From NCBI RefSeq assembly GCF_030316135.1, contig NZ_CP128185.1:1116001-1180000 (forward strand): DNA of 64,000 nucleotides, written 5' to 3'. Every line of letters begins with the position of its first letter. The stretch's first letter is position 1. The position numbers and the translations under genes were made by a program. Under the pieces are notes generated by a model. The model was not told the origin of the DNA. It was given only the letters and a program-made list of their open reading frames with translations, and searched no databases. This document shows positions 8,332 through 44,250 of the stretch, piece after piece. The DNA comes from Aliiglaciecola sp. LCG003. GTDB taxonomy: Bacteria; Pseudomonadota; Gammaproteobacteria; Enterobacterales; Alteromonadaceae.

Positions 8332-8418
8332 GCCATTTTTGAGCTAGGACATGTCGGCAGAGTACTTATAAAATCTGACCATATATAGTTATCCTCCAAG
8401 GCGAGGGCAATCACCAAT

Positions 8419-8823
8419 TTAGCCTAACTTAGTATTTAACCAGCTTAGGGCTTCTTGTTCAGACTCAAAGAAGCCGTGACTGATATCGCTTTGGGTATAT
8501 ATTTCGCTCCAGAACTGCTTTACTGTGCTGATATATTCTACATCTATTAATACCACAGCGGTTGCCTTCAGCCCCATGATTTTAGCCTGCTTGATGGTTT
8601 CTACAAAAATCAATTTAGCTTCAGGCGGCACTAATGGCTCGCCAGATAACAAAACGATGCTCGCCCAGGGAGAGTGCATGATTTTTTGCCGATAGGCCAT
8701 GACCTCTTTTTGATAAAGCAGGACCATTTCCAAATTAGCGGGGCCATGTCCTTCTATGACTAATATTTGATCTTGTGTCGACAACTTCAAATTGCCATGA
8801 ACGGGAAAGTTTCTTTGATTCAT
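8419..8823 (-). CDS. Small STAS-like protein of unknown function (paralogue of the protein at 25830)
   Basis: The 134-residue soluble protein has an alternating beta/alpha pattern: ILVIEGHGPANLEM, then ASIVLLSGEPLVPPEA, then KATAVVLIDV, ending in EALSWLNTKLG. This layout resembles SpoIIAA/STAS-like single-domain proteins, but no phospho-acceptor Ser is obvious, so the family call is tentative. It is clearly homologous to the protein at 25830-26273: both share a G-x-GP-N-E start, PWA...L-GE-x-x-PP-A, KQ-x-x-SE-Y and a closing FF...A-x-WL. It is encoded downstream of hemN on the same strand with an 83-base gap, so co-transcription is possible. Function unknown. Confidence 0.6.
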   Translation of the reverse strand: MNQRNFPVHGNLKLSTQDQILVIEGHGPANLEMVLLYQKEVMAYRQKIMHSPWASIVLLSGEPLVPPEAKLIFVETIKQAKIMGLKATAVVLIDVEYISTVKQFWSEIYTQSDISHGFFESEQEALSWLNTKLG

Positions 8824-8906
8824 TCATACCTCTGGCTGCGGTCAAAAAGTTTGGGAAAATATAGTCCCTCCTCACCGGTATGAGGGTATCAACAAAACAT
8901 GACCAA

Positions 8907-10274: not shown

Positions 10275-10342
10275 GATGCCTTCAATGCCTAGCTGAATGT
10301 ATATATTGAAAGTTAGTATAGGGAAGGTTTAAATCGGCTTTA

Positions 10343-10356
10343 TTGATCAAGCGCAA
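10343..10356 (-). promoter_or_regulatory. Probable FNR/Anr-type binding site upstream of hemN
   Basis: The 14-mer TTGATCAAGCGCAA matches the TTGAT-N4-ATCAA consensus fully in the first half and at CAA in the second, so eight of ten informative bases agree. It sits about 70 bases before the hemN start codon, a place compatible with activation. hemN is a classical FNR-controlled gene in related bacteria. The site was found by eye and has not been scored. Confidence 0.5.
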
Positions 10357-10446
10357 AGATATCTAATTTTGCGCACCACATGGTCGTTTCACTAGAAAAG
10401 TATTGAGAAGGCAGCGCTAGAACACATGAGTAAATAGTGAGGCACT

Positions 10447-10477
10447 GGTTGCGCACCCTAATTGGCGGTGCGCAACC
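10447..10477 (-). terminator. Perfect 11-bp hairpin after the 472-residue protein gene
   Basis: GGTTGCGCACC and its exact complement GGTGCGCAACC are separated by nine bases, ten bases beyond the stop codon of the minus-strand gene at 10487. There is no T-run on the minus strand, so it may be a terminator needing a factor or an mRNA-end stabiliser. Confidence 0.5.
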
Positions 10478-10486
10478 ATAGCATGG

Positions 10487-11905: not shown

Positions 11906-12337
11906 GGATATCTTGTCTTCTTAAGTGGGCGTTTGAGCAATATTAGAACAAAGTGCTTTTGGGGTACAGGGTAATTAATCCCATTCTGATTGATGAGCAA
12001 CTTAGGAAGCATTCAAACTAGCGTTTTTCATTTAATTAGACCATGTCATTCCAATTCATTTTATTAAATAAAGCTCTGCGTTACTTATTGGCTTTTAGTC
12101 CAATACGAATAAGATAGACAGTGATGCAGTCAAATGGGCAATCCATGGCGAAAAATCACTGGCGGATCACTGAGTCATTTATCGTGTGAGGGTAAATATA
12201 TGGCCATTAATGGACGAATCGCCTGTTGAAGGCAATTTAATGCGATTAGTTCTTGAATTTGCTAGGGTTGAACTTTAGATTGAGGGTATAACCATTACTG
12301 TGATCAATATGATTTCGAAAGGTAGTAGATAGTCCAA
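11906..12337. other. Intergenic region between divergent genes (no gene seen)
   Basis: The 432 bases hold the promoters of the unassigned gene (left, minus) and the PilZ gene (right, plus). The stretch is AT-rich. I see no ORF with a plausible start, no clear hairpin and no copy of the dispersed repeat found further on. Confidence 0.5.
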
Positions 12338-14740: not shown

Positions 14741-14891
14741 ATTACCCTCAAATAATCAGTTTAACAAGAGTATGATTTAATTTAATATTTTGGCCATATA
14801 AGGGCAAATATTGCACCCTGAATGAGACTGCTCTAGCAAAATCAAAAATGTGTCTTACACTTTATAGTTCATAAACTAGGACACACATATT

Positions 14892-15734
14892 ATGAAAACA
14901 TGTTATTTGGTGTTAGTAGTAGTTAGTTCACTTGCTCTGATTGCTTGTAGTCCAGAGTCTAAGCAATCCGTCAATGCTGAGCAAAATCCCGCCATTACGA
15001 CTCAACCCCTAGGGCAATCTACGCCCGTTGATCCCCAATGTTCTTATATTCTTGGATTTGACGTATGGGAGCCCTACCAATACGTTGACGTAGATAACCG
15101 TGTTAGGGGCTTAGACGTCGAGCTCATTACCACTGTGCTAAGTAACATGGGATGCAGTATTGAATTTAAACAAGGTACTTGGGTGATGCTGTTGGAGGAT
15201 CTTAAACAAGGCCAGGTTGACATTTTACTCGGTGCCTCGAAAACCCAACCCAGAGAAGAGTATGCGTTTTTTAGTGAGCCTTATCGCAGTGAGGAGTTTT
15301 CGCTATATATACGTAAAGATGATCAAAAACGCGCTAGTTATTCAGATCTTGATGATTTCATTGCCAACGGCAGTAAAATAGGAGTTGTCAGTGACTACTT
15401 TTATGGTCCGAGGATCTCTATCTTGCTTGACGGAAGCGCCACATCAAAACAATTTGTCAGTGGCATTATGGGCGAGCTAAATATTGCGAGGTTACTTGAT
15501 CAAGATATTGATGGCTTCTTAGAAGATAGTTTCGTTGGGGCATCTATGCTGCGTAGAAAAGGTCTAAGTCAGTACATTACTCCTCATGGTTTTACGATTA
15601 AAACGGGCGAAATATACGTGATGTTTAGCAAGGATAGTGTTGAGGAACAAAAAGTGGACGAGTTTAATCATAAGTTATCTGAATTTAGAAGCAGCACCGG
15701 CTATAAAGAACTTATGGGAAAATACAGTCTTTAA
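14892..15734 (+). CDS. Transporter substrate-binding domain lipoprotein (SBP_bac_3-like)
   Basis: The 280-residue protein carries a lipoprotein signal peptide with a lipobox ending LIAC at Cys19, followed by a low-complexity linker to about residue 50. A family-3 periplasmic binding fold then follows: ILGFDVWEPYQYVD, RGLDVELI, QGQVDILLGASKT and REEYAFFSEPYR are the usual blocks for amino-acid-type binding proteins. No ABC permease or ATPase gene is nearby, so it may serve as a sensor or as a stand-alone binding protein, as is common in Alteromonadales. The next ~760 bases contain no gene. Confidence 0.82.
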   Translation: MKTCYLVLVVVSSLALIACSPESKQSVNAEQNPAITTQPLGQSTPVDPQCSYILGFDVWEPYQYVDVDNRVRGLDVELITTVLSNMGCSIEFKQGTWVMLLEDLKQGQVDILLGASKTQPREEYAFFSEPYRSEEFSLYIRKDDQKRASYSDLDDFIANGSKIGVVSDYFYGPRISILLDGSATSKQFVSGIMGELNIARLLDQDIDGFLEDSFVGASMLRRKGLSQYITPHGFTIKTGEIYVMFSKDSVEEQKVDEFNHKLSEFRSSTGYKELMGKYSL

Positions 15735-16493
15735 ACGCAAAGTTTGATGTATTATTTTTTGCTGAACACTAATCTCCTGCTGGGACCTAACCCCCATTGG
15801 AGGATCTAAATACTGGGTTGGCTAGCCCCTAATAATGAACCGAAAATTAGGGTGCTGGCTTTCAGTTTTTCCCAAATTAATTCAATACTGGATAATCAGG
15901 TTCACTAGGGACATAGGAAGCTGCAAACATTACTTGTCTTAAATACAAGTGTGTTTGCAGTGTTCAAGCAATATTGTTGTTGAACACCACTGCGCTAAAC
16001 CGTATTCCCGCAGGGCTAATCACAGGCCCACTTAGGTTATTCAAACGTCTATTTCTAGCCGTTTACATTTTTGCTCGTTGATGTTGAGCACGACGTTCCA
16101 TCTCAAGGACAAAATGCTACTGGCGCCGGTATCACCATCGCCAACTGGGCGAATAGAGCGTTAAGATAAATTAGTAGCGCCGTCCCTAATGATATCGCCC
16201 AGCACCTTTGCAAAACTTGCTGCTGACTAAATGCACTAAATATTCAATTTCACCTAATTTACTCTGCAATAGCGACTATCCCTACCTGTGCGGGAATGCT
16301 TAGGGATGACACTTGTTTGGGCAGTGGAGGGCGACTTTGCGGGTTGACGGGCATCCCATAGTTGTTTTTTTTGATTTGATAAAGTGGTATAAACTCGAGC
16401 CATTGAACCGCTGGTTTTCCTGCGCATTCCAATTAACAAGTCTGTTTTAATGTTTTTCTGACATAGGGTGTTAACCCCAAAGGTTGTGTTCTA
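15735..16493. other. 759-bp gene-free region with consecutive inverted repeats
   Basis: No convincing gene is present. Four inverted repeats are visible: CCCTAAT/ATTAGGG (15827-15833 with 15846-15852), a long one at 15921-15960, TGTTCAA/TTGAACA (15960-15966 with 15979-15985), and ATCCCTA/TAGGGAT around 16278-16307. The last resembles the short palindromic intergenic repeats (with GCGGGAAT inside) common in proteobacteria. The region separates the binding-protein gene from the dctB-like gene, whose promoter must lie at its right end. Confidence 0.55.
15921..15960. repeat. 40-nt near-perfect inverted repeat
   Basis: CTGCAAACA pairs with TGTTTGCAG and the inner ACTTGT pairs with ACAAGT. Only TT on one side and G on the other are unpaired, and the loop has seven bases. 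It would fold into a strong cruciform or RNA hairpin. It lies nearly 190 bases past the last stop codon and has no T-run, so it is not an ordinary terminator. Confidence 0.65.
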
Positions 16494-18278
16494 TTGCGTT
16501 TACTTTCAGTGCTCGGTATATGGATTTTATGTGTTGGTCTTGTGGCAATTATCGCAGTGCAGGAAGGTAAATCTTATCTAGAATCCAAGTCAAATCGCAT
16601 GCTAACCGAGGTTTCTGCACGGCTTGAAATCGAATTAGACAAATATCGAACCCTGCCGAAAGTTTTGACCTTGCACCCGGTTATTGAGACTGCGTTATTA
16701 AAAACAACCCCTGAGATTGATCAAGACGCCAACCTGTTATTGGCCCGCTACAATAATTCGTTGTCTAGTGAGGCCGTATATTTGATTGACGCAACTGGTG
16801 TCACCATAGCCTCGAGCAATTGGGACCAAGCAAATAGCTTTGTGGGTAGCGATTATCACTTTAGACCCTATTTTCAGCAGGCGATGATGGGCAATGAAGG
16901 AAGTTACTTTGCCTTGGGTACGGTTTCTAAGCAGCGTGGCTACTACTTTTCCCAACCCGTTCGCAGAGACGATGAAGTCTTAGGGGTATTAGTCATTAAA
17001 GTATCCCTCACTGCAATTGAAGATGGGTGGTCAGGGCAGGGACTAGAGTTTTTACTTACAGACATATACGGCGTGGTGTTTTATGGCTCTCAAGCGGAGT
17101 GGAACTACAAAGCACTTGCGAGTTTGCCGGTTGACGTTGAGCAACAACTCATTGAGCAGCGCCAATATGATGGCATGCCGATTCAACAATTAACCGATTT
17201 TGCCAATAATAGCGATGTTCTCAACAGTAAAAAATTCTATTTACCATTCAAAGGTAGTTCAAAATCTTTTTATCAAACCCACAAAGATATGAGTCCTGTA
17301 GGCTGGCGTCTTTTTGCGCTTACTCCGGTCAATATGATCAACCAGATTGTTTTTTGGAGTTTGGCAGTTGCTACGGTATTTTTCGTGTTGTTTTACCTTG
17401 TGAGTTTTTATTGGCGAAGAACAGTCGATGCGCAGAAACAACTAGCAGCGATAAACGAAGAGCTTGAGCACCGTGTTGAGACTCGCACAACCGAGCTTCG
17501 TCAATCGAACAATCAATTAATCAGTATTATTGATAAGCAAAAGCAGACCGAAAAAATACTAAAAGAAACTCAGTTTGAATTGATCCAAGCCGGCAAGTTG
17601 GCGTTGCTTGGCGAAATGTCAGCAAGTATTAATCATGAACTGAATCAACCATTGACGGCGATGCGAACTTATACCGAAACATTACTGATGATGGTGTCAA
17701 AAGGGAAACTGGACAATTTGGAACATAATGCTCAGGAGATCTTAAAGCTCAACAAGATGATGGCAAAAATCGTTGGACAATATAAATTGTTTGCACGCAA
17801 ATCTGTCGGCAAAATGGGACCTGTTTGTATTCAAGAAATCCTATCAGCGTCGCTATCAATCTTAGATGCAAAAATGCAGAAAATAGGGGTTAAGCTTGAT
17901 GTTGAGGGGAAATTAGCAGGAATTCAAGTTTTGGCCGAATCCGTTCCATTGGAGCAAGTCCTGGTTAATCTTCTTAACAACGCCCTGCAAGCTTGTGTGG
18001 ATACCGACATCCCAGCAATCGATATTAAAGTCGAGCATGATCAAAACTTAGTTACTATCAGCGTGGCGGACAATGGCCCGGGATTCCCTCAGGGTGTAAT
18101 TGAGCATGTTTTTGAGCCGTTTTATACCACCAAAGGGCAGGGCTTGGGATTAGGCTTAACTATATCAAAACGCATTGTTGAATCTTTCGGAGGTACCATT
18201 GGGGCTAGTAATGGCGCAGTCAACGGCGCTGTATTTACCGTGATTCTTGCGCGTTTCAAAGAAGATAATAAAATATGA
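16494..18278 (+). CDS. DctB-type sensor histidine kinase
   Basis: The 594-residue inner-membrane kinase has a first membrane segment at about 5-25, a periplasmic double-Cache-like sensor (about 30-280, with the DATGVTIASSNW and SYFALGTVSKQRGYYFSQP blocks typical of DctB) and a second membrane segment at about 283-305. A coiled coil follows, then the H box with His381 in NHELNQPL, the N box NLLNNALQAC, and ATP-lid motifs DNGPGF and GLGLGL. DctB senses C4-dicarboxylates in rhizobia and pseudomonads; here the ligand is unknown. TTG start, with AAAGG ten bases upstream. It overlaps the regulator gene by ATGA. I withhold the symbol because the regulon here is not the classical dctA. Confidence 0.88.
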   Translation: MRLLSVLGIWILCVGLVAIIAVQEGKSYLESKSNRMLTEVSARLEIELDKYRTLPKVLTLHPVIETALLKTTPEIDQDANLLLARYNNSLSSEAVYLIDATGVTIASSNWDQANSFVGSDYHFRPYFQQAMMGNEGSYFALGTVSKQRGYYFSQPVRRDDEVLGVLVIKVSLTAIEDGWSGQGLEFLLTDIYGVVFYGSQAEWNYKALASLPVDVEQQLIEQRQYDGMPIQQLTDFANNSDVLNSKKFYLPFKGSSKSFYQTHKDMSPVGWRLFALTPVNMINQIVFWSLAVATVFFVLFYLVSFYWRRTVDAQKQLAAINEELEHRVETRTTELRQSNNQLISIIDKQKQTEKILKETQFELIQAGKLALLGEMSASINHELNQPLTAMRTYTETLLMMVSKGKLDNLEHNAQEILKLNKMMAKIVGQYKLFARKSVGKMGPVCIQEILSASLSILDAKMQKIGVKLDVEGKLAGIQVLAESVPLEQVLVNLLNNALQACVDTDIPAIDIKVEHDQNLVTISVADNGPGFPQGVIEHVFEPFYTTKGQGLGLGLTISKRIVESFGGTIGASNGAVNGAVFTVILARFKEDNKI

Positions 18279-19621
18279 CTTTACCTATTATAATTGTTGA
18301 TGATGAATCAGCAATACTGCATTCACTATCCCAACTGTTAGAGCTTGAAGATTATCTGCCAACCACTTTTACCGATGCGCGCAAGGCGCTGGAAATATTG
18401 GAACCGAACTGGCCCGGAGTTATTCTCAGCGATATCAATATGCCAGGCATGGATGGAATTGCATTTTTAAAAAGTGCCCTGAAAATTGATTCTGAACTTC
18501 CGATTGTTATGTTGACTGGCCATGGTGATATATCCACCGCGGTAGAAGCAATGCGCCTAGGGGCCTATGATTTTATCGAAAAGCCCTTTTCAAATGAGCA
18601 TATCTTAGACGTCCTAAAGCGGGCGGGTGAGAAACGTGCGTTAGTATTAGAAAACAGAGAGCTCAAAAATGAGCTTTCAGCGCAAGGCGTGGCTGGCCCA
18701 CGGATACTGGGGAATACCGCAAAAATTAAAGAATTACGCAGAGTACTGACTCATGTAAAAGATATACCTGCTGATGTACTGATCAAGGGAGAGACAGGTT
18801 CCGGTAAAGACTTAGTCGCTAGGTATCTGCATTACAACAGCACTAGACATAATGAAAACTTCGTCGCAATCAACTGTGGTGCTATTCCTGAAAGCATGAT
18901 TGAAAGTGAGTTATTTGGATTTGAAGCTGGTGCGTTTACCAGTGCCCAAAAGCGTCGAGTGGGCAAAATTGAATATGCCAATGGCGGTACATTTTTTCTA
19001 GATGAAATTGAAAGCATGCCAATGGCGTTGCAGATTAAGTTGCTTCGTGTTTTGGAGGAAAGACGTATTGAACCTCTCGGCAGCAACAAGCAAGTAGATC
19101 TCACTATCCGTTTTGTTGCGGCAGCGAAGGTGGATTTGCTCGAATTAGTCGGCAGAGGTGAGTTTCGAGAAGATCTCTATTATCGACTCAATGTGATCAA
19201 TATTGAAATTCCTCCTTTGCGAGAAAGGAAAGAGGATATTTCGCTACTTTTTCAACATTTCGCGGCAATGGCGAGTACCCGTTTTAACACCGATACCCCC
19301 AAACTAACTGCGGAGCAGATTTACCACCTTAAAATGCATAGCTGGCCGGGCAATATCCGAGAGTTGCGCAATACCGCCGAACGGTTTGTGTTGATGGGGG
19401 GAGTATCAGTACTTGATAGTGCTGAATCTCTTACTAACGGTAAAGCTGAAATGTCATTAGTTGAAAAAGTTGCCCACTATGAGACCAGCGTGCTGCAAGA
19501 AGCGTTGCTCGCTAACGAAGGACGGCTAGTAGACGTGCAGCAACAGCTCGGTCTACCTAGAAAGACGCTATACGATAAGATGCGAAAATACGGCCTCGAA
19601 AAGGATGATTACAAGCAGTAA
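18275..19621 (+). CDS. DctD-type sigma-54-dependent response regulator
   Basis: The 448-residue activator has a receiver domain with the phospho-acceptor D53 in LSDINMPGMDG and a AAA+ domain with Walker A GETGSGKD (about 172-179). The GAFTSA loop is a conservative variant of the GAFTGA element that contacts sigma-54. The C terminus has a Fis-type helix-turn-helix (QQQLGLPRKTLYDKMRKYG). It should turn on sigma-54 promoters when phosphorylated by the kinase whose gene it overlaps. The nearest sigma-54 promoter is at 19912-19927, in front of the TonB receptor, so that transport unit is the obvious target. Confidence 0.92.
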   Translation: MTLPIIIVDDESAILHSLSQLLELEDYLPTTFTDARKALEILEPNWPGVILSDINMPGMDGIAFLKSALKIDSELPIVMLTGHGDISTAVEAMRLGAYDFIEKPFSNEHILDVLKRAGEKRALVLENRELKNELSAQGVAGPRILGNTAKIKELRRVLTHVKDIPADVLIKGETGSGKDLVARYLHYNSTRHNENFVAINCGAIPESMIESELFGFEAGAFTSAQKRRVGKIEYANGGTFFLDEIESMPMALQIKLLRVLEERRIEPLGSNKQVDLTIRFVAAAKVDLLELVGRGEFREDLYYRLNVINIEIPPLRERKEDISLLFQHFAAMASTRFNTDTPKLTAEQIYHLKMHSWPGNIRELRNTAERFVLMGGVSVLDSAESLTNGKAEMSLVEKVAHYETSVLQEALLANEGRLVDVQQQLGLPRKTLYDKMRKYGLEKDDYKQ

Positions 19622-35940: not shown

Positions 35941-35986
35941 TGGTGGCCCAACCCTGACTTGAACAGGGGACCTGCCGATTATGAGT
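35941..35986 (-). tRNA. Displaced 3' part of the native CAT-anticodon tRNA (left end of the inserted element)
   Basis: On the minus strand these 46 bases read from the anticodon loop (ACTCATAAT) through the variable loop, a perfect T arm (CCCTG, TTCAAGT loop, CAGGG), the 3' acceptor strand TTGGGCC and ACCA. There is no 5' half next to it: the sequence beyond 35986 is unrelated. Its acceptor strand pairs perfectly with GGCCCAA of the orphan 5' half at 44041, so both are the halves of one interrupted gene. It should be non-functional alone. Confidence 0.85.
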
Positions 35987-36025
35987 TATTCGTACTGGTG
36001 TAATACCAGCTTCTACACGCTTCTA

Positions 36026-36141
36026 TGTAAGCGCATGACCATATATAAATCAGCGGTTTGCGGTCATTTTTAATACTACGTGCTATTTTACAGTTCAAGG
36101 TAGATTGCTTACACTACTGCTTACATGACTTATTTGTAAGC
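36026..36141. promoter_or_regulatory. Left-end cluster of TGTAAGC/GCTTACA heptamers (putative integrase arm sites)
   Basis: TGTAAGC occurs at 36026-36032 and 36135-36141, and its complement GCTTACA at 36107-36113 and 36119-36125. A matching set of four lies at the right end (43737-43952). Such mirrored clusters at both termini are what tyrosine-integrase arm-type or excisionase sites look like. Confidence 0.5.
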
Positions 36142-36274
36142 ATGAAATAGCTGCGGCCGGCGACTGCGCCAACAGTCCCGACCGCGTGACCGACGTTCTA
36201 GTTTAGGAGCACGCCGATATGAATATTGTAACCACAAGCCCTGTTTATGTGTACCCAGCACAGGAGGGGCAGCA

Positions 36275-37558
36275 ATGAAACTCACCAACACAAAAGTCAA
36301 AAGCCTCCCGATCCCTACCGACAAGGGACAGGTCTTTCATTGGGACAGCGAAACCAAAGGCTTCGGCCTGCGCATTACCTCAGCAGGTGCAAAGAGTTGG
36401 ATCGTACAAGGACGAGTTCACGGAAAGACCCGCCGTTACACATTGGGGCCGTTTGAGCTATTAGCCGCTGATGAAGCGCGGAAGCGAGCACAAGCTAAGC
36501 TCCTCGAAATGTATGACGGGAAAGACCCACAAGTTGAGAAGAAAAAACTCAAGGCTCAAAGTGAATCCTTACGCGAGGTCATGGAAGATTACATACTGCA
36601 CAAGCGCACCAAGAATGGACCGTTGCGTCCTACCAGCAAGGAAGACATCAGGAGGTGTGTTGAAGGTACGTTTTCCGACTGGGCGGATAAACCTGTGGTC
36701 ACTATTACTCGTGACGCTTGTATCAAGAAATTCCGCGAATTATCAAAGTCCGCACCAATTCAAACGAATCAATCATTTCGTAACCTTCGAGCATTGCTTA
36801 ACTGGGCGCGTGAGAAGAACGCCACTGCTGACGGCACTTATCCGATTCTGCCAGTCAACCCAGTTTCGCAGATGTTCAAGAAAGGCGGTCTTGTACAGTG
36901 GAACCCTGAGAAGGCTCGCGCCAGTCGTGTACCAAAAGACAAGATTGGCTCTGTGTGGTTGATGCTACAAGAGCACAGCAACCCTGACCACCATATAACC
37001 ACAACTTGCATCAGTGCCGATTTGATCGCGTTCATGCTGCTAACGGGCTGCCGAGTATCGGAAGCCTGCAAGCTAACTTGGAAGCATGTAAAGCTCGATG
37101 ACAAAGTGCCAACATTCCACCTTGATGAGACCAAGAACCATAACCCGATAACACTACCGATTGGCTCCGCACTGCATGAGGTATTGACTCGCCGTTATGA
37201 AGGACGCTTTAAGGGAAATGATTATGTCTTTCCTGCCATGCGCGGTAACAAGGGTTATCTGAGTGATCCTCGGGCGTTATTTAAAAAGGTGTCTGAGGTG
37301 GCGGGCGTACATTTGCACCCGCACGCACTACGCCGAACCTTTGAAGATATTGCGCAGCTTGTGGGCGTTGATTCGGATAAGCGCAGACAGCTACTCAATC
37401 ACTTAGCCAGTGATGTGCATGGGCAGAACTACGCCAACAACCCTGACCCATCCGTCTTGATGCCTGCAATGCAAAAAATCGGGGAATGGATAGAGAAGCA
37501 AGGCGGTATAGCGCGAGCAGCTTCAAAAGGTGAGAATGTAATCCCGATGAAGGCTTAG
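36275..37558 (+). CDS. Tyrosine-type integrase (DUF4102 arm-binding type)
   Basis: The 427-residue recombinase has an N-terminal arm-binding domain (about 1-85, with GFGLRITSAGAKSW and RRYTLGPFELLAADEAR), a SAM-like core-binding domain (about 95-200) and a catalytic domain. The full catalytic set is visible: R260 in TGCRVSE, H350 and R353 in HALRR, H376 in LLNHLASD and the nucleophile Y386 in GQNYAN. It should be active. An AGGAGGGG-like site (CAGGAGGGGC) precedes the ATG closely. Position next to the left end and reading into the element is typical for integrases that target tRNA genes. It should act on the 9-bp anticodon-loop core. Confidence 0.95.
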   Translation: MKLTNTKVKSLPIPTDKGQVFHWDSETKGFGLRITSAGAKSWIVQGRVHGKTRRYTLGPFELLAADEARKRAQAKLLEMYDGKDPQVEKKKLKAQSESLREVMEDYILHKRTKNGPLRPTSKEDIRRCVEGTFSDWADKPVVTITRDACIKKFRELSKSAPIQTNQSFRNLRALLNWAREKNATADGTYPILPVNPVSQMFKKGGLVQWNPEKARASRVPKDKIGSVWLMLQEHSNPDHHITTTCISADLIAFMLLTGCRVSEACKLTWKHVKLDDKVPTFHLDETKNHNPITLPIGSALHEVLTRRYEGRFKGNDYVFPAMRGNKGYLSDPRALFKKVSEVAGVHLHPHALRRTFEDIAQLVGVDSDKRRQLLNHLASDVHGQNYANNPDPSVLMPAMQKIGEWIEKQGGIARAASKGENVIPMKA

Positions 37559-37844
37559 AGCAGGTGTTGCAATAACCTAACAGGTGCTTGTAAGTGATTG
37601 ATAATTAACGGCTGTTTTGTTGAAATTGCTTGCAAGTACGTTGAAGAGCATATAAGTTAATAAGCGTAAATAGCTTTCGCTACCCAGTTGAGCGTGACGC
37701 AATAGCCGCCTCAGCGGTTTGACTGGGTTCTACACATAGCATGGGCAGTGTCGCGGAAATCGGACAACCAAGAAAAGGGTTGTCAGTTTCGCTGCACTGC
37801 CTTTTTCGTTTGTGGTGGTGTGGCAGTTCAAGAAGGGTGAACCC
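37559..37844 (+). promoter_or_regulatory. Structured leader between integrase and the AlpA-like gene
   Basis: The gap holds an ACCCAGT/ACTGGGT pair enclosing a CCGCCTCAGCGG hairpin (about 37682-37729), and then a long stem at 37744-37801. The stem has GGCAGTG with CACTGCC, GCGGAAA with TTTCGC, and GACAACC with GGTTGTC, and is directly followed by TTTTT. The second structure is a rho-independent terminator in form but lies only about 40 bases before the AlpA-like start, so it could be an attenuator or an immunity-RNA target. Confidence 0.55.
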
Positions 37845-38054
37845 ATGAACCTCTTAACCACAGAACAAGCCGCAAAATTCATCTTTGGTCCCGAAGGCAA
37901 GAAAGGCACACTCGAACAGTGGCGCTATCGAAAAGTCGGGCCGAAATTCCGCAAAGTAGGAAAGCTGGTGCGCTATGCCGAAGCTGATCTAGTTGAGTAC
38001 CTAGAGCAGCAAGCACGCACAGGAACCAGCCACCAAAACCTGCAAACTTACTGA
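37845..38054 (+). CDS. AlpA-like helix-turn-helix DNA-binding protein
   Basis: The 69-residue protein is a MerR-like winged helix of the HTH_17/AlpA type: LLTTEQAAKFIF, then a TLEQWRYRKVGPKFRKVG segment and VRYAEADLVEYLEQQ. Such proteins act as excisionases or activators of integrase and replication genes in P4-like elements. The start at 37845 has AAGGG seven bases upstream; an in-frame ATG at 37812 has none. It lies between the attenuator-like hairpin and the structured leader of the DUF3987 gene. Confidence 0.85.
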   Translation: MNLLTTEQAAKFIFGPEGKKGTLEQWRYRKVGPKFRKVGKLVRYAEADLVEYLEQQARTGTSHQNLQTY

Positions 38055-38158
38055 ACCAAGTATGTCACAGACTATGTTCAGTTCATCTTTTTTAGAAGTG
38101 TGCCAACCCTTTACCGTTGCCCAGAACGAGTCGAGTAACTGCACCTGTAAGCCAATCA

Positions 38159-38226
38159 AGAAAAAAGGCCGCTGGATCGCACTGTTTTCACAATGCGGTG
38201 GCGTGTTCCAGCAGCCTTTTACTCGA
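38159..38226 (+). promoter_or_regulatory. Long hairpin leader in front of the DUF3987 gene
   Basis: GGCCGCTGGA (about 38168) pairs with TCCAGCAGCC (about 38209) with one mismatch. CGCA-TGT inside pairs with ACA-TGCG, and a CCTTTT run follows. The ribosome site AGGAG of the next gene begins two bases after it, so the fold could control termination or translation. It parallels the hairpin in front of the AlpA-like gene. Confidence 0.5.
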
Positions 38227-38240
38227 CAGGAGCGATTCAA

Positions 38241-39803
38241 ATGCCAAGCAACAACACTATAGGACAGCCGTCAGAGGCAAAGCTAGATAACTTTCGGGAG
38301 CGTACTGAAGCAGAGTTTGCAGAGCTGCACAGGCAGCACAATAGCGAACACTGGGGAGCTGTAGCCGCTGAAATGCAGCCGATCGTGGCTAACCTATTGG
38401 CTAACTTTGACCACAGGCAGCAGGCCGCACAAGACCAGCAAATCATGGACGAATTTCTGGCAGGGACTAAACCATCTTACACACTTGACAACCCTCCGCC
38501 TGGCTTCGCTGGAGTCTTGGCAAATGCAATCCTTCAAGGTAGCTATCAGCCAGCGTCTGAAATTGCTATAGCTGCAACGCTTGGTCTTCTAGCTGGAGTT
38601 TGTGGCAGAGCATTTGCCATTCCGTCAGGGAAGGACTGTGCGCTTCACATTATTCTTGTGGCTAAGAGCGGGCTAGGTAAGGAAGCAATTCACGAAGGCA
38701 TTGCTGCCATGATTGACCTTAGCGGAATCCCAGAGGCTCGCTACTTTGTTCAAGCTGTGGACTTCGCCAGTGGGCCTGCTTTGCAAAAGCGGCTTCTTGA
38801 TAATCCCGGTTTTCTCAATCTGCAAGGTGAGTTCGGGAGAAAGTTGCGCCGAATGGCTAACGCCAAAGATGCACCGATGCAGGAGCTTCGCACAGTGATG
38901 ACAAAGTCTTACGGTAAAGACTGGCTCGATGGTATGGAGTACAGCAACGCTGAGAAGAACAAGAACGGTGTGAAGTGGCCTGCATTATCGTTCCTTGGTG
39001 AGACAACGCCGGGGACGTTTACGGAGTCACTGACTGCCGACATGATGGAGGATGGCTTCTTATCAAGGTTTAACGTCATCATGTATGAAGGGAACTGGAA
39101 AACACCGAATAGAGGGCATCGGCAATATCATCTAAACCCAAGTGAGCTAACACACTGGCAAGGTATTATTCGGCGAGCGTTACCCTATCAAGCTGCTATT
39201 CATACACCTGAATATCAAATCAGGGTTCAGTATGGAAGTGACAGCACGGAGCAACGACTACAGGCTTTCGAGGACGAGTGCGGTAAGGCCGCGGATCGAA
39301 TAGAGGATGAATCAGAACGGCAGGTCTACACCCGTGCAGCTATCAAGGCTTATAAGATTGCCAGCCTACTAGCGATTGCTGATAACCCAGCACACCCGAT
39401 GATATTCAATAACCACGCTAAGTGGGCAATCGAACTGATCAGGCGCGACATAGCAGCATTCGTTGATCGTAAAGAATCAGGGGATGTTGGCAAGACGGAT
39501 GATGCTCGCTCCCTGAAAATCAAAAAGATAATGACTGACTATATTAGGGGCAAGGTATCAGCTAGCTATAAGGTTGATCCGCGCATGATTGAAAATGGTG
39601 TTTTGCCTCGTGCATATATTCAGAAGCGAATCGGCAATAACAATCAGGCATTCAACTCTCACCCGCAAGGTCACACAGTAGCGATTGACGCCACTATTAA
39701 AAACCTGATCGACAACGGCAACTTGATGGAAATATCGAAAGATGCACTTGTTGAGCAATACGGCTTTCATGGTCGCTGCTTCAGAGTGCTAACCCTTGAT
39801 TGA
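38241..39803 (+). CDS. DUF3987 domain-containing primase/helicase-like protein
   Basis: The 520-residue protein has a helical N terminus and a P-loop-like AKSGLGKEA at about 140-148. Further on, NLQGEFGRKL, SFLGETTPGTF and DGFLSRFNVIMYEG are typical of DUF3987 (YfjI-like) proteins found in phage satellites and genomic islands, where they probably serve autonomous replication. The chosen ATG has AGGAG eight bases upstream; an in-frame ATG at 38193 falls inside the leader hairpin. It is the largest gene of the island. Enzymatic activity is inferred from family context only. Confidence 0.82.
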   Translation: MPSNNTIGQPSEAKLDNFRERTEAEFAELHRQHNSEHWGAVAAEMQPIVANLLANFDHRQQAAQDQQIMDEFLAGTKPSYTLDNPPPGFAGVLANAILQGSYQPASEIAIAATLGLLAGVCGRAFAIPSGKDCALHIILVAKSGLGKEAIHEGIAAMIDLSGIPEARYFVQAVDFASGPALQKRLLDNPGFLNLQGEFGRKLRRMANAKDAPMQELRTVMTKSYGKDWLDGMEYSNAEKNKNGVKWPALSFLGETTPGTFTESLTADMMEDGFLSRFNVIMYEGNWKTPNRGHRQYHLNPSELTHWQGIIRRALPYQAAIHTPEYQIRVQYGSDSTEQRLQAFEDECGKAADRIEDESERQVYTRAAIKAYKIASLLAIADNPAHPMIFNNHAKWAIELIRRDIAAFVDRKESGDVGKTDDARSLKIKKIMTDYIRGKVSASYKVDPRMIENGVLPRAYIQKRIGNNNQAFNSHPQGHTVAIDATIKNLIDNGNLMEISKDALVEQYGFHGRCFRVLTLD

Positions 39804-40289
39804 GGTGGGGTGAGGGTACGGCCTCCCTCCTCATACCATATAAGCAGAGTCATAGCGGCTCTGCTTTTGTGAGCGGGAACATAAAGCCTTTACCACAGTT
39901 GCAGTTCGCCAACTACGGGCACACAGCGGCGGCACAGGCCGAGATCGTGCAGTGCTCAGTAGCAATACGGCGGTGAGCATGTGTAGCGGCCTACAAGCGG
40001 TTACAGCGAGTTTTTACAGTATTAAAGGCGGTTTTTAATGAGGTAGTCTGGCTAAGTGGTTGTTGTGCAAGGGATATAGAGAAGAAATTAAATAAATTAA
40101 AAATTAAAATATACCCCTATGTCTTGTTGTTCATATAAGCCCAAATGCTATTAGGCTAATTTTGCTTAGGGTCTTTTAATTTTTAATTTTAGCCGAGAAA
40201 TAGCGGCAAACGGTTGTATTTATTCAATAAAAAAGGGAGTCACTCTATTTAATGCTCCCTTTAATGCGGTTTAACGCGATTTATTGTGG
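39804..40289. other. Gene-free stretch after the DUF3987 gene (possible replication region)
   Basis: The 486 bases contain no convincing gene. Features seen are an AT-rich tract at about 40080-40200 and the sequence AAAATATACCCC near 40105, which recurs as AAAAATATACCCC near 43063 before the cargo gene. A terminator for the opposite-strand gene is at its right end. A replication origin beside the DUF3987 gene is possible, but I could not find clear iterons. Confidence 0.4.
40226..40262 (-). terminator. Rho-independent terminator of the 120-residue protein gene
   Basis: On the minus strand AAAGGGAG pairs with CTCCCTTT around 15 bases and is followed by TTTTATTG, 27 bases after the stop codon. 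Confidence 0.75.
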
Positions 40290-40652
40290 TCAAGCTGTCA
40301 CACGTCCGCTTATACCCATGAACTTGCGCCAAGTGTACAGCTCGCACATTGCATTATTGACATTCCACCCGTTGGCGGTTGCAGCCTCGCGCACCTGCTT
40401 GGCTGTGCAGTTTGGGTGAGTATCGAGGTAGTCCCACACGGCAGCGCAAAGGCCGCCCGATGCTGGACGCTTCACGCCGTTGCGCTCTTCTCGTGTGGGT
40501 TGTGCTGTGGTTACTGGCTTATCAAGAATCACCCACTGACCTGAGCCTAGTTCGGTCTCCTGCACTTCATACCTATTCGCGTAGTCTTTGCCGTGAAGGC
40601 GGCGTGCTGCTGATTGGGCTGATCTCTTAGTGGTGTAAGTGTCTGCGCTCAT
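40290..40652 (-). CDS. Hypothetical island protein, 120 residues, possible winged-helix C terminus
   Basis: The only minus-strand protein gene of the element. The N-terminal half is basic (TTKRSAQSAARRLHGKDYANR). The C-terminal half (about 68-118, with AVWDYLDTHPNCTAKQVREA and WNVNNAMCELYTWRKF) looks like a winged helix-turn-helix. A regulator divergent from the 40890 gene is plausible: 237 bases separate the two starts, with a CAACGA/TCGTTG hairpin at 40714-40728 in between. Family not recognised. Confidence 0.65.
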   Translation of the reverse strand: MSADTYTTKRSAQSAARRLHGKDYANRYEVQETELGSGQWVILDKPVTTAQPTREERNGVKRPASGGLCAAVWDYLDTHPNCTAKQVREAATANGWNVNNAMCELYTWRKFMGISGRVTA

Positions 40653-40889
40653 TGTCGTTGCTCCTGTTTGTATTTATGACAGGCATACGCTAAGACGCAT
40701 CTCCGATGAGCGGCAACGACTTTCGTTGATAACGTGCAAATTACCGAACGAATAACGCCTAGTTATATGGGCTAATTTTGTTTTTATTTGATAGTGAATT
40801 GTTTTTAAAAAATATTTTTGTAGGTGTTTTTTGTTTTGTCTTAGCTTAGTAAGCAGTAAGTAACTACTCACACCCAAAGGAGCACCAAA

Positions 40890-41621
40890 ATGGCTAAGAG
40901 CACCGAATTAAAGACAACAGTTAGTCCCTCGCTGCACCCTGCAAATATCACAGGCATTGCAGGATATGAGGAACACAAAGCGTACCTACAGCATTCAGTT
41001 ACCGCAGTAGATAGCGCATATCAGGCGGTTGAGCATGTAATGGAAGCTCGCATGAAATTGGCGCTTGATGAAAGCCGTACACCTAAGGCGCGTGTGCTTA
41101 TGGCTGCACAAATGGCAGACAAGTACATGGATCAGCTTCAAAGAATGTTTGAGTCGAGCTGGAATCAATTAACGAAAGGCATTGACCACAGTGAGCTACA
41201 ACTCAGCAAGCCGCTTGAGGAATATGCGGGTATCGGCAATGTGGCTAGTGAGATTCGGGCGCATCTTAAATCAATGACGGCAGGCGAACGAGTCAAGTTC
41301 CTTGGCGAAGCATTAGAGCGAGGTGATGAAAAGACCCTCAAGTCTGTACTTGGCGCTCCATCATATTTGAGCGGCATGAGCGACTTGGAGCAGCAGCACA
41401 TCACTCGTAATTATCACTCCAAGAACAACCCTGAAATGGCGCAGCGCGTTGAGCTGATGAAACAAGTGCGCGACAAGTTGGAACGAGTCAAGCCAGTACT
41501 GTTTCAGGAGATGGAACGAGCTGTTGGAGCTAACAAGCTGGAGATTGCAAAACTAAAAGCGGTTAGTAGCGAAGCGGAAGCAGCGTTGATCCTTAAAGAA
41601 TTCGCGCCTGCACAGGATTGA
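40890..41621 (+). CDS. Hypothetical island protein, 243 residues
   Basis: A soluble helical protein with charged heptad-like stretches (about 40-105 and 175-235). There is no signal peptide, membrane segment or catalytic motif that I recognise. AAAGGAG seven bases before the ATG gives strong translation. It starts a rightward run of small genes with short gaps or overlaps (41653, 42123, 42371, 42807), probably one operon. In satellite elements this position often encodes packaging or helper-interference functions; no direct sign of that is visible. Confidence 0.7.
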   Translation: MAKSTELKTTVSPSLHPANITGIAGYEEHKAYLQHSVTAVDSAYQAVEHVMEARMKLALDESRTPKARVLMAAQMADKYMDQLQRMFESSWNQLTKGIDHSELQLSKPLEEYAGIGNVASEIRAHLKSMTAGERVKFLGEALERGDEKTLKSVLGAPSYLSGMSDLEQQHITRNYHSKNNPEMAQRVELMKQVRDKLERVKPVLFQEMERAVGANKLEIAKLKAVSSEAEAALILKEFAPAQD

Positions 41622-41652
41622 TGGATAGCTGATGTAATCAAAGGGTTCAACT

Positions 41653-42123
41653 ATGACAACGACTAAAGCAGAACCAGACTGGAAACAGAATTGGAAGCCA
41701 GATCCAGATACACCTAAAACGGGGAATCCGAACTGGCGTAAGGGCATGAGCAGTCCTAACCCTAGCGGCAGGCCAAAAGGCATTGTTGATAAGCGCCATA
41801 AAGTGACTCAGGCGCTGCTAAACGATGCTCACGAAATTGCAAATGTGGTGGTAGCCAAAGCCAAGGAAGGCGACCTACAAGCAGCATCGCTGGTATTAGC
41901 GCGTGTAATGCCCACGCTAGCCGCGCAATCGGAAAAGGTTCAGTTTGACCTTGATCCAAGTGCGCCACTGGCGCAGCAGGTTGAGCAAGTTCTAGCAGCT
42001 ACCGCAGACGGCGAAATATCACCAGACAACGCAAAGCGAATCATTGAGGCAATTGGTGCTCTCGGCGCTATCCGTCAGATGGACGAGATCGAGGCGCGAC
42101 TTGCGGCATTGGAGGCAAGCTAA
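41653..42123 (+). CDS. DUF5681 domain-containing protein
   Basis: The 156-residue protein has the DUF5681 signature near residues 22-45 (TGNPNWRKG, then NPSGRPKG), a positively charged motif found in many phage and mobile-element proteins. A helical region follows, with EIANVVVAKAKEGDLQAASLVLARVMP and a final coiled coil (about 130-156). Relatives often sit beside terminase genes, so a small-terminase or DNA-binding role is possible, but no large terminase is present here. AAAGGG precedes the ATG by seven bases. The stop overlaps the next start as TAATG. Confidence 0.72.
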   Translation: MTTTKAEPDWKQNWKPDPDTPKTGNPNWRKGMSSPNPSGRPKGIVDKRHKVTQALLNDAHEIANVVVAKAKEGDLQAASLVLARVMPTLAAQSEKVQFDLDPSAPLAQQVEQVLAATADGEISPDNAKRIIEAIGALGAIRQMDEIEARLAALEAS

Positions 42124-42374
42124 TGGGTGACACACTTGAAACAAAATATGAATGGGCTGGATATGACGAGTTTGAGCCGATATTGCCAGCACCTAAATAT
42201 CGCGTAGTAAAGTCCCAAACCAAAGCATTTGAAACAATCAAGCAAACCAACGGGCTGACCACAGTAGTACGCCTTGAATCAGGCGAGCTGCATACATTCA
42301 AAGGTCGAGGGGAAGTAATTGGCGTTTACGACCCCTCAATAACACAACAGCAATTCAGGAGCGACATATCATGA
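42123..42374 (+). CDS. Hypothetical island protein, 83 residues
   Basis: A small acidic beta-rich protein (RVVKSQTKAFETIKQ, then LTTVVRLESGELHTFKG). Its start overlaps the DUF5681 stop by one base and its end overlaps the next gene by ATGA, so it is translated as part of the same operon. No family recognised. Confidence 0.65.
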   Translation: MGDTLETKYEWAGYDEFEPILPAPKYRVVKSQTKAFETIKQTNGLTTVVRLESGELHTFKGRGEVIGVYDPSITQQQFRSDIS

Positions 42375-42838
42375 AATTTGATAAGAACACGTTTAAGCAA
42401 GTGCGGATACCAACCGCAGGCATGAAGCCTTTCAAAGTTATTTATCCTCAGTTTTCCGAGGTGTTAAATAAAGCGAAAATGACCCAAGGGTATGCGGATG
42501 GAGGCCAGCTAATTCACCATGAGGATAACAACCTTGAGCGCGTTTACTTTGTTCAGCGCGAAGATGGGTATTGTGTGGTTATTGGTGCAGGCTCTGGCGA
42601 TAACGCCTACCACTTGCTTGAAGAGCATTTGGACGAGAATATTAAAGCTGAGGTGATCTTGTGCAAAGTGCCAGCCGCAGCCGTTAGCACTTACGAAAAG
42701 GGCTATCTCAACTCAGAATTCGGGGCGCTTGAGTTCATAGCCCAGCACCATCCCGACAGTCATGTGCGAGTTGATATTATCGCCCGCTTAGAAAATGAGG
42801 CAGCATATGAGAACAAGAATTCCGAGCAGTTACACTAA
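42371..42838 (+). CDS. Hypothetical island protein, 155 residues
   Basis: A soluble alpha/beta protein with VYFVQREDGYCVVIGAGSGD in the middle and a C-terminal helix. AGGAG lies eight bases before the ATG and the start overlaps the preceding gene by ATGA. Family unknown. Its last 32 bases are shared with the following gene in another frame. Confidence 0.65.
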   Translation: MKFDKNTFKQVRIPTAGMKPFKVIYPQFSEVLNKAKMTQGYADGGQLIHHEDNNLERVYFVQREDGYCVVIGAGSGDNAYHLLEEHLDENIKAEVILCKVPAAAVSTYEKGYLNSEFGALEFIAQHHPDSHVRVDIIARLENEAAYENKNSEQLH

Positions 42839-43034
42839 GCGAATCGATCAGTTAGAACGAGAGCGTAAGATCCAGACGCTCCGACCTGTGGCTATGTTTC
42901 CTCGCCTCGTTTCTGTTGACGAATGGGGCGAGTTAGCAAGCCAGATGCAAGGTATTCTAAAAGATAATATCAAGCTCGATACACCACCCGATTATGGCCG
43001 CTTGCCTAAGCTGGAAGTTGTGGCGAGTCGCTAA
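42807..43034 (+). CDS. Hypothetical island protein, 75 residues
   Basis: Starts inside the end of the previous gene; GAGG six bases before the ATG at 42807 supports this start over the in-frame ATG at 42795. The short basic N terminus (RTRIPSSYTKRIDQLERERK) is followed by a helical body (WGELASQMQGILKD). It ends the operon. No family recognised. Confidence 0.55.
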   Translation: MRTRIPSSYTKRIDQLERERKIQTLRPVAMFPRLVSVDEWGELASQMQGILKDNIKLDTPPDYGRLPKLEVVASR

Positions 43035-43117
43035 ATATTTTTTTTCCGCCCTTTTGATGTAAAAATATACCCCAATATCTACAAGGTATTCTGGCTGAAG
43101 ATTAAGGGGTAAAGGGA

Positions 43118-43705
43118 TTGGAAAAATATTTATATTTAACTTGGCCTGAGTGGGTTGACGCTTGGGTTAATGGCGGCAAAATCCCTTTAAATCCTGCAAG
43201 TGTGTACAAACGAATGGATAGGGATGGAATCTATACTCCCGATGAGAACTTAATCTATGAGTCAACGCATCCGATAGATCAAATGAATCCAGCTATATAT
43301 GTAGCCAATAATGTGCAAAATGTGACAGTTGGAGCATCAGTCTTTGAGTGTGGAAATGTCCGGCAGGAATTCCCTGCAAATTATATAAAAGATTTTTACC
43401 AAGGGGATGGAGTAATTCTGTCGCTATGCAACCGAAAGAGTAACTCAATTGCGGAGCGTTTACGGAAAAGAGCAGCCGTAAAAATTTTCAATGTTGCGTA
43501 TCTTAAAGCTGTCATAGATGAACAGCTAGGAAAAAAGAGCATTGCAAAGCCGTGTGAGTACACGAGCAGTCATAACAGAAACCACTTCTTGAAGTCTGTC
43601 GCAGATCAGTGGCAGGACGAGTACCGTTTCTTCTGGGATCATCAGGAACGTGTAGAAGTGGAGCTGCCCAAAGGGATGGCAAAAAGAATCAAGATCAAGG
43701 TGTAA
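43118..43705 (+). CDS. Unknown protein at the element's right end (candidate cargo gene)
   Basis: The 195-residue soluble protein has an aromatic N terminus (LYLTWPEWVDAWVNGGKIPLNP) and a hydrophobic core strand NVTVGASVFECGN. Near the C terminus, FLKSVADQWQDEYRFFW and VEVELPKGMAKRI resemble the way DUF2971-type proteins end, though only weakly. TTG start with AAGGGG eight bases upstream. Base composition is more AT-rich than in the replication half, and it lies between the core genes and the attachment site, where satellites usually keep anti-phage or accessory cargo. No function can be claimed. Confidence 0.6.
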   Translation: MEKYLYLTWPEWVDAWVNGGKIPLNPASVYKRMDRDGIYTPDENLIYESTHPIDQMNPAIYVANNVQNVTVGASVFECGNVRQEFPANYIKDFYQGDGVILSLCNRKSNSIAERLRKRAAVKIFNVAYLKAVIDEQLGKKSIAKPCEYTSSHNRNHFLKSVADQWQDEYRFFWDHQERVEVELPKGMAKRIKIKV

Positions 43706-43769
43706 AAATAGTTGCTCTTCCCACTAAGTAATCGGATGTAAGCATCTACTTTCTATGCCCCTCAAATGA

Positions 43770-43803
43770 AAAAAGCCCTCAAACCATGCGGTTCAAGGGC
43801 TTA
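43770..43803 (-). terminator. Rho-independent terminator of the element-borne tRNA
   Basis: On the minus strand, four bases after the CCA end, AAGCCCT-TG-AACC pairs with GGTT-TG-AGGGCTT and runs into TTTTTT. It is a textbook terminator and shows that transcription of the tRNA is meant to end there. Confidence 0.8.
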
Positions 43804-43806
43804 ATG

Positions 43807-43883
43807 TGGTGGCCCCACCCCGACTTGAACGGGGGACCTGCCGATTATGAGTCGGATGCTCTAACCAACTGAGCTATAGGGCC
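43807..43883 (-). tRNA. Complete tRNA with CAT anticodon (Ile2-type or Met), carried by the element
   Basis: A 77-nt cloverleaf including encoded CCA: acceptor GGCCCTA with TGGGGCC (one U-G pair at 6-67), D arm GCTC...GAGC, anticodon stem CCGA/TCGG with loop CTCATAA, T arm CCCCG/CGGGG with loop TTCAAGT. The GGCC start, the CGACTCATAATCG arm and the TTCAAGT loop resemble the lysidine-modified tRNA-Ile (AUA decoding) more than elongator tRNA-Met, but software may label it Met. It differs from the reconstructed native tRNA at four positions that make up two base pairs, both kept paired. It lies inside the element and should replace the interrupted native gene. Confidence 0.92.
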
Positions 43884-44001
43884 GAAACTGTTTTAGCAGC
43901 TTACATATAAGTTACATGCGTTTCAATGCTGCTTTGCTTACAAGCTGTAAGCGGTTGTTTTTATAGCGTTTGCATCGCTAACTGACCTCTTAGCACATTC
44001 T

Positions 44002-44041
44002 ATTATGAGTCGGATGCTCTAACCAACTGAGCTATTGGGCC
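44002..44041 (-). tRNA. Orphan 5' part of the native CAT-anticodon tRNA (right end of the element)
   Basis: On the minus strand it begins GGCCCAATAGCTCAGTTGG, continues through the anticodon stem and ends in the loop (ACTCATAAT), after which the sequence becomes element DNA (AGAATGTGC). It lacks an anticodon 3' stem, T arm and acceptor 3' strand. Together with 35941-35977 it makes a 77-nt tRNA with perfect GGCCCAA/TTGGGCC pairing. Its promoter at 44096-44124 is intact. Confidence 0.87.
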
Positions 44042-44095
44042 ATTTAGAAGTGTTGTCTGCAAATTTGGGTGGACATCATTTACAGAGCGGTGCGC

Positions 44096-44124
44096 AGTAT
44101 AAGCAGTTTTAAATAAGTTGTCAT
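44096..44124 (-). promoter_or_regulatory. Sigma-70 promoter of the interrupted tRNA gene
   Basis: Minus-strand ATGACA (44124-44119), a 17-base spacer and TATACT (44101-44096), followed by a GC-rich discriminator GCGCACCGC as in stringently controlled stable-RNA promoters. The expected start is near 44089, about 48 bases before the tRNA 5' end. Transcription from here would pass through the orphan half and reach the complete tRNA at 43883. Confidence 0.65.
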
Positions 44125-44189
44125 CAGTTTGTGCGCTGAAATTGGTTGTTTGCTGAAAAATCACACAATGATTTGTTTGCTAGGCAAAT

Positions 44190-44215
44190 TAAAAAGCAGT
44201 GACGAATCACTGCTT
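44190..44215 (-). terminator. Rho-independent terminator of the YdgA-family gene
   Basis: Minus-strand AAGCAGTGA and TCACTGCTT (nine pairs, four-base loop) are followed by TTTAATTT, 36 bases after the stop codon. Confidence 0.8.
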
Positions 44216-44250
44216 CTCATATTTTCATTATATTTCTGGGTACGTGGGGG

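Follow-up and report, generated by a model that had tools for sequence, protein, structure and literature searches.

In a 64,000-nucleotide (nt) stretch of the chromosome of Aliiglaciecola sp. LCG003 (contig NZ_CP128185.1, positions 1,116,001 to 1,180,000; hereafter the window), an 8.0-kb integrative element appears to have replaced the whole of the tRNA-Ile2 gene into which it inserted, a reading to which we give a probability of roughly 0.87. The tyrosine integrase of the element would recombine in the anticodon loop of a single-copy tRNA-Ile2(CAU) gene, its presumed target, and with only a core of about 9 bp common to the gene and to attP, the attachment site of the element, integration would break the tRNA instead of rebuilding it. 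The element would compensate by bringing a whole tRNA-Ile2 gene with a terminator, placed just inside the attP arm and facing the host tRNA promoter. Transcription from that promoter would run through the orphan 5′ half and the arm into the replacement tRNA, which RNase P, in the normal course of 5′ processing, would free. A foreign tRNA would in this way take the place of an essential one in the host. For as long as the element stays integrated, losing its tRNA end should be lethal, but precise excision would restore the native gene. The case is built from sequence, namely a split gene with its core, a complete replacement that is unique among the tRNA genes found, recurrence of the arrangement in 17 genomes and a counterpart at a serine tRNA.

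Read 5′ to 3′ on the minus strand, a promoter-like site (44124–44096) is followed by the 5′ half of the native tRNA-Ile2 (44041–44002), a 118-nt stretch constituting the attP arm (44001–43884), a complete tRNA with the anticodon CAT (43883–43807), a hairpin (43802–43773), the genes of the element, the integrase and finally the native 3′ half (35986–35941). The displaced 5′ half ends, and the displaced 3′ half starts, with a copy of the attachment core ACTCATAAT (44002–44010 and 35978–35986, both minus strand), which contains the anticodon loop CTCATAA. Core to core the element measures 8,024 bp, and its G+C content is 47.5% versus 42.5% for the remaining window. The single tRNA that ARAGORN detects in the window is the one at 43807–43883 on the minus strand, which scores 66.2 bits against Rfam RF00005; another Rfam hit in the element, to RF04354 on the strand opposite the tRNA, falls short of the gathering score. 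With the full tRNA as query against its own genome the 3′ half is recovered at E 1.8e-13 and the 5′ half at E 6.2e-13, and therefore the halves are no chance match. Rejoined, the two halves make up a 77-nt sequence in which ARAGORN recognizes a CAT tRNA, and pairs are standard at 7/7 positions in the acceptor stem and 5/5 in the T-stem; standard pairs in both stems are found in the complete copy too (the joined native was judged by ARAGORN and these pair counts, the covariance model being applied to 43807–43883).

An earlier note on this DNA, made from the letters alone, had described the two halves with their common core and, between them, a full 77-nt CAT tRNA on an integrase-bearing element; coordinates and pairing both hold. 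Its observation that the two versions differ at four bases amounting to two pairs was likewise borne out, at 6/68 (A-U in the native, U-G in the replacement) and at 53/63 (U-A and C-G), pairing being kept in each. attP has only ACTCATAAT in common with the tRNA gene and both native halves stay orphaned, which, with the full copy, supports the further contention of that note that the native gene is broken, that attP does not restore it and that a whole second gene is present. Short stretches of TTAC/GTAA type in the 118-nt arm, partly conserved among seven aligned loci of the same layout, are putative integrase arm sites.

Which of the CAT tRNAs is this, and is it alone? Contrast with the other CAT genes of the genome, and with E. 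coli tRNA sequences, identifies it at the sequence level as tRNA-Ile2, the isoacceptor with a lysidine-modified CAU anticodon, and TilS is encoded in the genome. A census of the host genome (G000, one contig of 4,411,932 bp), the first look of which scored 150 of 273 candidates, found 58 tRNA genes. Four of these have the anticodon CAT, comprising two identical initiator genes, one elongator Met gene and the element copy; there are four Ile-GAT genes, and Ile-TAT is absent from the 58. A hidden second Ile2 gene was considered and rejected, own-genome searches, the census and an Ile2 pattern all giving the element copy alone. Among 39 mechanically picked window open reading frames (ORFs) of at least 200 amino acids, ATA accounts for 216 of 1,036 Ile codons and is used in 38. 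Because one Ile2 gene was found, no Ile-TAT gene was found and ATA is widely used, the element apparently carries the sole AUA-reading tRNA of the genome, and the replacement would be essential. The earlier note had left the Ile2 identity as an ‘if’ and proposed counting CAT genes genome-wide; the comparison comes down on the side of Ile2, and three of the four genes counted are Met-type.

Nine genomes of the genus were searched, that of the window included. Each of the seven nearly complete congeners, which are other species, has one uninterrupted full Ile2 gene, identical in six of them (with G-C at 6/68) and differing in the seventh, while in the eighth, a 59%-complete genome, no Ile2 gene was detected. 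Homologues of two genes from the upstream side of the window lie near the Ile2 gene in 7/7, and the downstream side varies. Two tandem tRNA genes already present at the locus, named beforehand as the finding that would tell against the replacement reading, did not turn up in these other species, and an element-free strain of the species itself was not seen; pre-existing tandem genes were rejected on the ground that the congeners carry one.

The promoter-like site ATGACA-17-TATACT (44096–44124, minus strand), picked up in a sigma-70-like scan and kept in congeners, lies upstream of the broken tRNA, and no promoter match scoring 9 of 12 or better lies in the 118-nt spacer of the window. The replacement tRNA is immediately followed by an intrinsic terminator-like hairpin with a 13-pair stem and a T run (43773–43802, minus strand); three terminator-like sites were found in 43600–44250, the shuffle mean being 0.8, and another hairpin of this kind occupies the opposite strand of the spacer. 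In the shorter-spacer loci to be described, the best −10-like box ends 2–3 nt before the tRNA in 6/10. Since there is a promoter match before the broken half and none in the spacer, a hairpin after the replacement and −10-like boxes abutting the tRNA, we favour read-through from the host tRNA promoter followed by normal 5′ processing; the replacement is probably dependent on the host promoter before the broken half.

The arrangement is not confined to the window. A pattern consisting of the Ile2 5′ half followed by a base not continuing the usual stem matched 7 of 395 genomes of the host family, all seven with a complete CAT tRNA just downstream, and 25 stretches in a genome collection that by its description covers 84,980 species. 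Thirteen of the 25 have a full same-strand tRNA close behind; six proved to be intact tRNAs with a G-U pair (L115, L118, L126, L131, L132, L135) and six lack a close full tRNA on the same strand (L120, L123, L125, L127, L129, L138), and neither group was counted. As three of the 13 coincide with family hits there are 17 distinct genomes, window included. Two IMG/VR stretches (L140, L141) were set aside as looking like intact or contig-edge tRNAs. The 17 genomes are gamma- and betaproteobacterial, with named hosts including Azoarcus (a betaproteobacterium), Ectothiorhodospira, Marinobacter, Zhongshania, Neptuniibacter, Neptunomonas, Pseudoalteromonas, Rheinheimera, Alishewanella and Arsukibacterium. 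The spacer between core and replacement is 116–119 nt in seven, 52 nt in seven and 41 nt in three, a fixity suggesting that the tRNA has been placed at the smallest distance from the core that the integrase arm would permit. In 17/17 the Ile2 pattern hits nothing but the element copy, a count made with an exact pattern in genomes many of which are drafts or metagenome-assembled genomes (MAGs).

The window integrase (36275–37558, plus strand), with Phage_integrase and Arm-DNA-bind_3 domains, has a relative with 74% identity in Azoarcus taiwanensis and another, a fragment with the same identity, in Ectothiorhodospira, neighbouring genes also being common to these elements of the same layout. A different tandem pair of tyrosine recombinases serves the 52-nt layout in L157 and L158; among the cargo of this layout are, in L158, a TOTE-type primase-helicase together with a DNA methyltransferase and, in L155, an Old-type protein. 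The spacer layouts presumably arose independently. In L158 (Pseudoalteromonas lipolytica) the tandem tyrosine recombinases are paired with the TOTE-type primase-helicase (1044–3401 and 7041–9293), and L156, also of the 52-nt layout, has at 4824–7181 an ORF equal in length, and similar at its start, to one in L158.

Both ends could be located in eight Ile2 elements of 2.0–17.8 kb, and the rejoined halves read as a CAT tRNA in 8/8. Native and replacement differ at four positions in the window, five in L155, eight in L156 and eight in L158, mostly at paired positions, and L155 and L158 have an identical replacement inside different native genes; in the window itself a foreign origin of the replacement seems probable. 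The smallest element (L122, in an uncultured Gammaproteobacteria MAG) is 2,028 bp core to core and carries the replacement tRNA; having no ORF of at least 110 amino acids it is without an integrase of its own, and is possibly a miniature element moved in trans. A rearranged variant is present in L162 (an Oceanospirillales MAG, G768:C7), whose parts are two opposite-facing orphan 5′-half patterns, a single full Ile2 gene and a 3′ half in inverted orientation. Four of the uncounted stretches (L123, L125, L127, L138) have an orphan Ile2 5′ half that no full tRNA on the same strand follows closely, and the Ile2 pattern has no match in the genomes of L123, L125 and L138, though it does in that of L127.

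A serine counterpart came from the relatives of the window integrase. In G457 (L150, complement of about 10000–18450) an integrase 40% identical to that of the window, accompanied by three further genes related to the window's, lies in an element of 8,361 bp core to core with the order tRNA-Ser(TGA) 5′ half, 93 nt, full tRNA-Ser(TGA), element, integrase, 3′ half. The rejoined halves read as tRNA-Ser(TGA), and since only 58 of 88 aligned positions (66%) are identical between native and replacement, the substitute clearly cannot have been copied from the native recently. Between the Ile2 and the tRNA-Ser(TGA) elements, the target of the integrase and the tRNA on board thus change together. L150 is the single whole-replacement case among 18 stretches around integrase relatives. 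Eight others, with integrases 30–36% identical, are ordinary gene-restoring islands with an intact tRNA (Ile2, Thr, Phe or Leu) at one end and a matching 3′ half beside the integrase, and have no second copy of the anticodon loop within 320 nt upstream of the tRNA; nine (L149, L153, L172, L174, L177–L180, L182) could not be judged. In two of the nine, L149 (43%) and L153 (39%), a 3′ tRNA half lies beside the integrase, with the loop TTT in L149 and of TGA serine type in L153 (isotype by eye); the opposite end of either stretch yielded no tRNA. As far as these sequences show, the integrase family targets anticodon loops and, where it could be judged, mostly restores the gene; whole replacement would be derived from ordinary islands in the part of the family nearest the window.

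Several observations weigh against the reading of the window as a whole-gene replacement. The eight restoring relatives mean that replacement is not a family-wide strategy. In four of the eight elements with both ends located (L157, L161, L164, L122) the replacement is the same as the rejoined native, and foreignness is not demonstrable there. The halves in Azoarcus are on different contigs, and rejoining them puts a G-G in the anticodon stem. An empty site with both flanks was not seen among the congeners, the gene beyond the 3′ half, which we take to be MCP-like, not being found in the seven congener stretches. The one sigma-70-like match of at least 9 of 12 in 43600–44250 is no more than chance gives (shuffle mean 1.1), and of the 17 loci 13 have such a match upstream and two have one in half plus spacer, figures for which there was no shuffle control; a better argument is that ATGACA-17-TATACT stands upstream of the single Ile2 gene in 7/7 congeners. 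For L150 the scan gave neither promoter nor terminator.

Could the window nevertheless be an ordinary tRNA island, restoring the 3′ part of its target, with the extra 5′ half left over from a tandem duplication or an earlier insertion? Such islands do occur in this integrase family, as just described, and at this very site. In the congener G002 an intact Ile2 gene and a 3′ half about 10 kb off (G002:C1:3067–3111 and 13324–13400) have a recombinase-like match (24%) between them, apparently, on sequence, an ordinary island at the same tRNA; the tRNA-Ile2 site is an insertion hotspot. A search pairing a tRNA with a downstream 3′ fragment, by the rules of the Islander paper (PMC4383910), would moreover file the window as one. 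An ordinary island would, however, join a native 5′ half to an element 3′ half, whereas the full gene in the window departs from the native through paired changes that fall in both halves, and on that ground ordinary 3′ restoration was rejected. Together with the single Ile2 gene in congeners, the fixed spacers in 17 genomes with different natives and the low identity of the full tRNA-Ser of L150 to its native, this makes the ordinary island very hard to credit.

Hardly more plausible is the notion that the replacement tRNA is translation cargo, a role that has been discussed for phage tRNAs, serving an AUA-rich element and lying near the attachment site by chance. Some prophages do carry Ile2 genes, an example being those of Latilactobacillus curvatus (PMC10688831). 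Against this, the isotype is that of the broken target, the gene is on the promoter side at 41, 52 or 116–119 nt from the core and it is the sole Ile2 match in 17/17, while the serine relative carries a serine tRNA and not an isoleucine one. Nor is the proximity a product of the search, the genomes having been chosen by an orphan 5′ half rather than by a nearby tRNA, with 6/25 collection stretches lacking a close full tRNA; related elements at other sites with an Ile2 gene far from attP were not seen. A less radical departure would keep whole-gene replacement and have the tRNA expressed from its own promoter inside the element arm. The 118-nt arm could house one, and in Ectothiorhodospira the arm holds a 10-of-12 match, but the arm of the window has no match of that score and arms of 41 and 52 nt leave little room, and we regard this version as unlikely. 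Whole-gene replacement with read-through from the host promoter remains our preferred account.

How firmly does such an element hold its host? The earlier note spoke of addiction by gene replacement, and that stands in so far as the only Ile2 gene sits on the integrated element. It does not stand without qualification, because both halves are intact with an identical core, which makes dependence in the window conditional. Precise excision would rebuild the native gene, and only imprecise loss of the element should be lethal in this host. Other genomes seem to have gone further. G727 (L154) keeps the replacement tRNA and neighbouring genes; a 3′ half was not detected in its genome (E up to 0.01), nor did any relative of the window integrase reach 1e-8, and it is a possible remnant. 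In G085, rejoining the halves leaves a G-G mismatch in the T stem. Judged by these features, both look like an irreversible stage of dependence. In Ectothiorhodospira shaposhnikovii two orphan 5′ halves precede one full tRNA (L136, 2640–3160), and on another contig (L152, 1158–1250) a 3′ half that pairs well with the second 5′ half is followed by an element-type hairpin and T run. This is probably a relay, seen across contig breaks, in which a second element would have split the replacement tRNA of the first. Taken at large, it seems quite likely that whole-tRNA replacement is a distinct strategy, arrived at repeatedly by unrelated integrases and not restricted to a single tRNA, in which a portable module of arm and tRNA moves between beta- and gammaproteobacteria, traps host promoters and brings about the foreign replacement of an essential tRNA gene, and that within the integrase family of the window it was derived from ordinary islands with target and tRNA switching together. 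Since the replacement retains the target site, a later element could strike it in turn, which would lead to relays of takeovers.

The nearest known systems each resemble the window in part. In the islands catalogued by Islander attP carries a tRNA fragment and integration restores the target, and 159 of 3,919 islands have a 5′ fragment (PMC4383910). Like tRNA islands that use the anticodon-loop subsite (PMC4383910; for archaea the review PMC8371274), the element has its integrase beside one attachment end, an anticodon-loop crossover, displaced fragments marking its ends and a tRNA promoter kept by the host. There, however, attP rebuilds the gene; here it provides the core only, both halves are broken and a separate whole gene is supplied, so that of the two marks of a tRNA island a tyrosine integrase between attachment sites in a tRNA gene is present and restoration of the target by attP is absent. 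The recA mobile element of Vibrio cholerae S24 (PMC4405046) is alike in splitting an important gene and carrying a full divergent copy of it (as here, with four differences in two pairs); its excision restores the native gene, as precise excision would in the window. It differs in that its target is a protein gene, its ends are inverted repeats and it was seen inserted in both orientations, whereas the window element is aimed at a tRNA and has its copy at a fixed distance behind the host promoter. Satellites of phage-inducible chromosomal island (PICI) type (PMC10111431) are similar in small size, integrase and primase-like gene, their AlpA-like regulator having a weakly matching candidate here, and some sit in tRNA-Ile2 genes; theirs usually have replacement sequence in attP, unlike the core-only attP of the window, and exceptions among HE-PICIs are read as regulated gene integrity. 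By site and enzyme the window element is a tRNA island, and by strategy a whole-gene-replacement island. Searches of open-licence PubMed Central (PMC) literature turned up no account of an island replacing the whole tRNA at its tRNA target.

A tRNA island of the textbook kind does no harm, since the gene is rebuilt from attP. In the window the native gene is really lost and the element supplies its own version of an apparently essential tRNA, which is to say that part of the translation machinery of the host is exchanged by insertion. This offers a route for tRNA genes between distant bacteria, by which an essential gene can pass between species, and it also lets an element raise the price of its own loss. 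Such cases would go down as ordinary in any search matching a tRNA to a single fragment; under the Islander pairing rule (PMC4383910) the full tRNA of the window and its 3′ half would pass for an ordinary island. With ordinary relatives in the same integrase family, the states before and after the change can be compared in nature, and an irreversible stage seems to be marked by those relatives in which one half has decayed or gone, making the evolution of essential-gene takeover testable.

The other genes of the element are, all but one, on the plus strand. After the integrase comes a HTH_17 protein (37812–38054; 61% identical in Azoarcus, 37% in L150), a candidate AlpA-like excisionase or regulator with a weak excisionase match (PHROG 66, E 0.0076), and then a DUF3987 primase/helicase-like replication protein (38193–39803; Pfam PF13148, 1.5e-7; PHROG 3022 DNA primase, 1.4e-101). 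The minus-strand ORF at 40290–40652 matches phage families without known function (PHROG 21588, 4.1e-21). It is followed by an ORF of 243 amino acids (40890–41621) with relatives in Azoarcus (34%), G727 (28%) and L150 (39%), a DUF5681 ORF (41653–42123) with relatives in the elements of Azoarcus (52%) and G727 (60%) and in the tRNA-Ser element L150 (43%), an ORF of 83 amino acids (42123–42374), one of 155 (42371–42838) related to genes of a Marinobacter element (48% over 77 amino acids) and of the G727 element (26%), and one of 195 (43118–43705). PADLOC returned no match among the eight window proteins given to it; in IMG/VR neither the integrase (by one scan) nor the DUF3987 protein has relatives, and the exact attP pattern has no match. 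Among plasmids and phages the integrase has relatives in 7 plasmid and 10 phage records (E limits 1e-30 and 1e-20), none of which reaches 33% identity, and the element is perhaps satellite-like.

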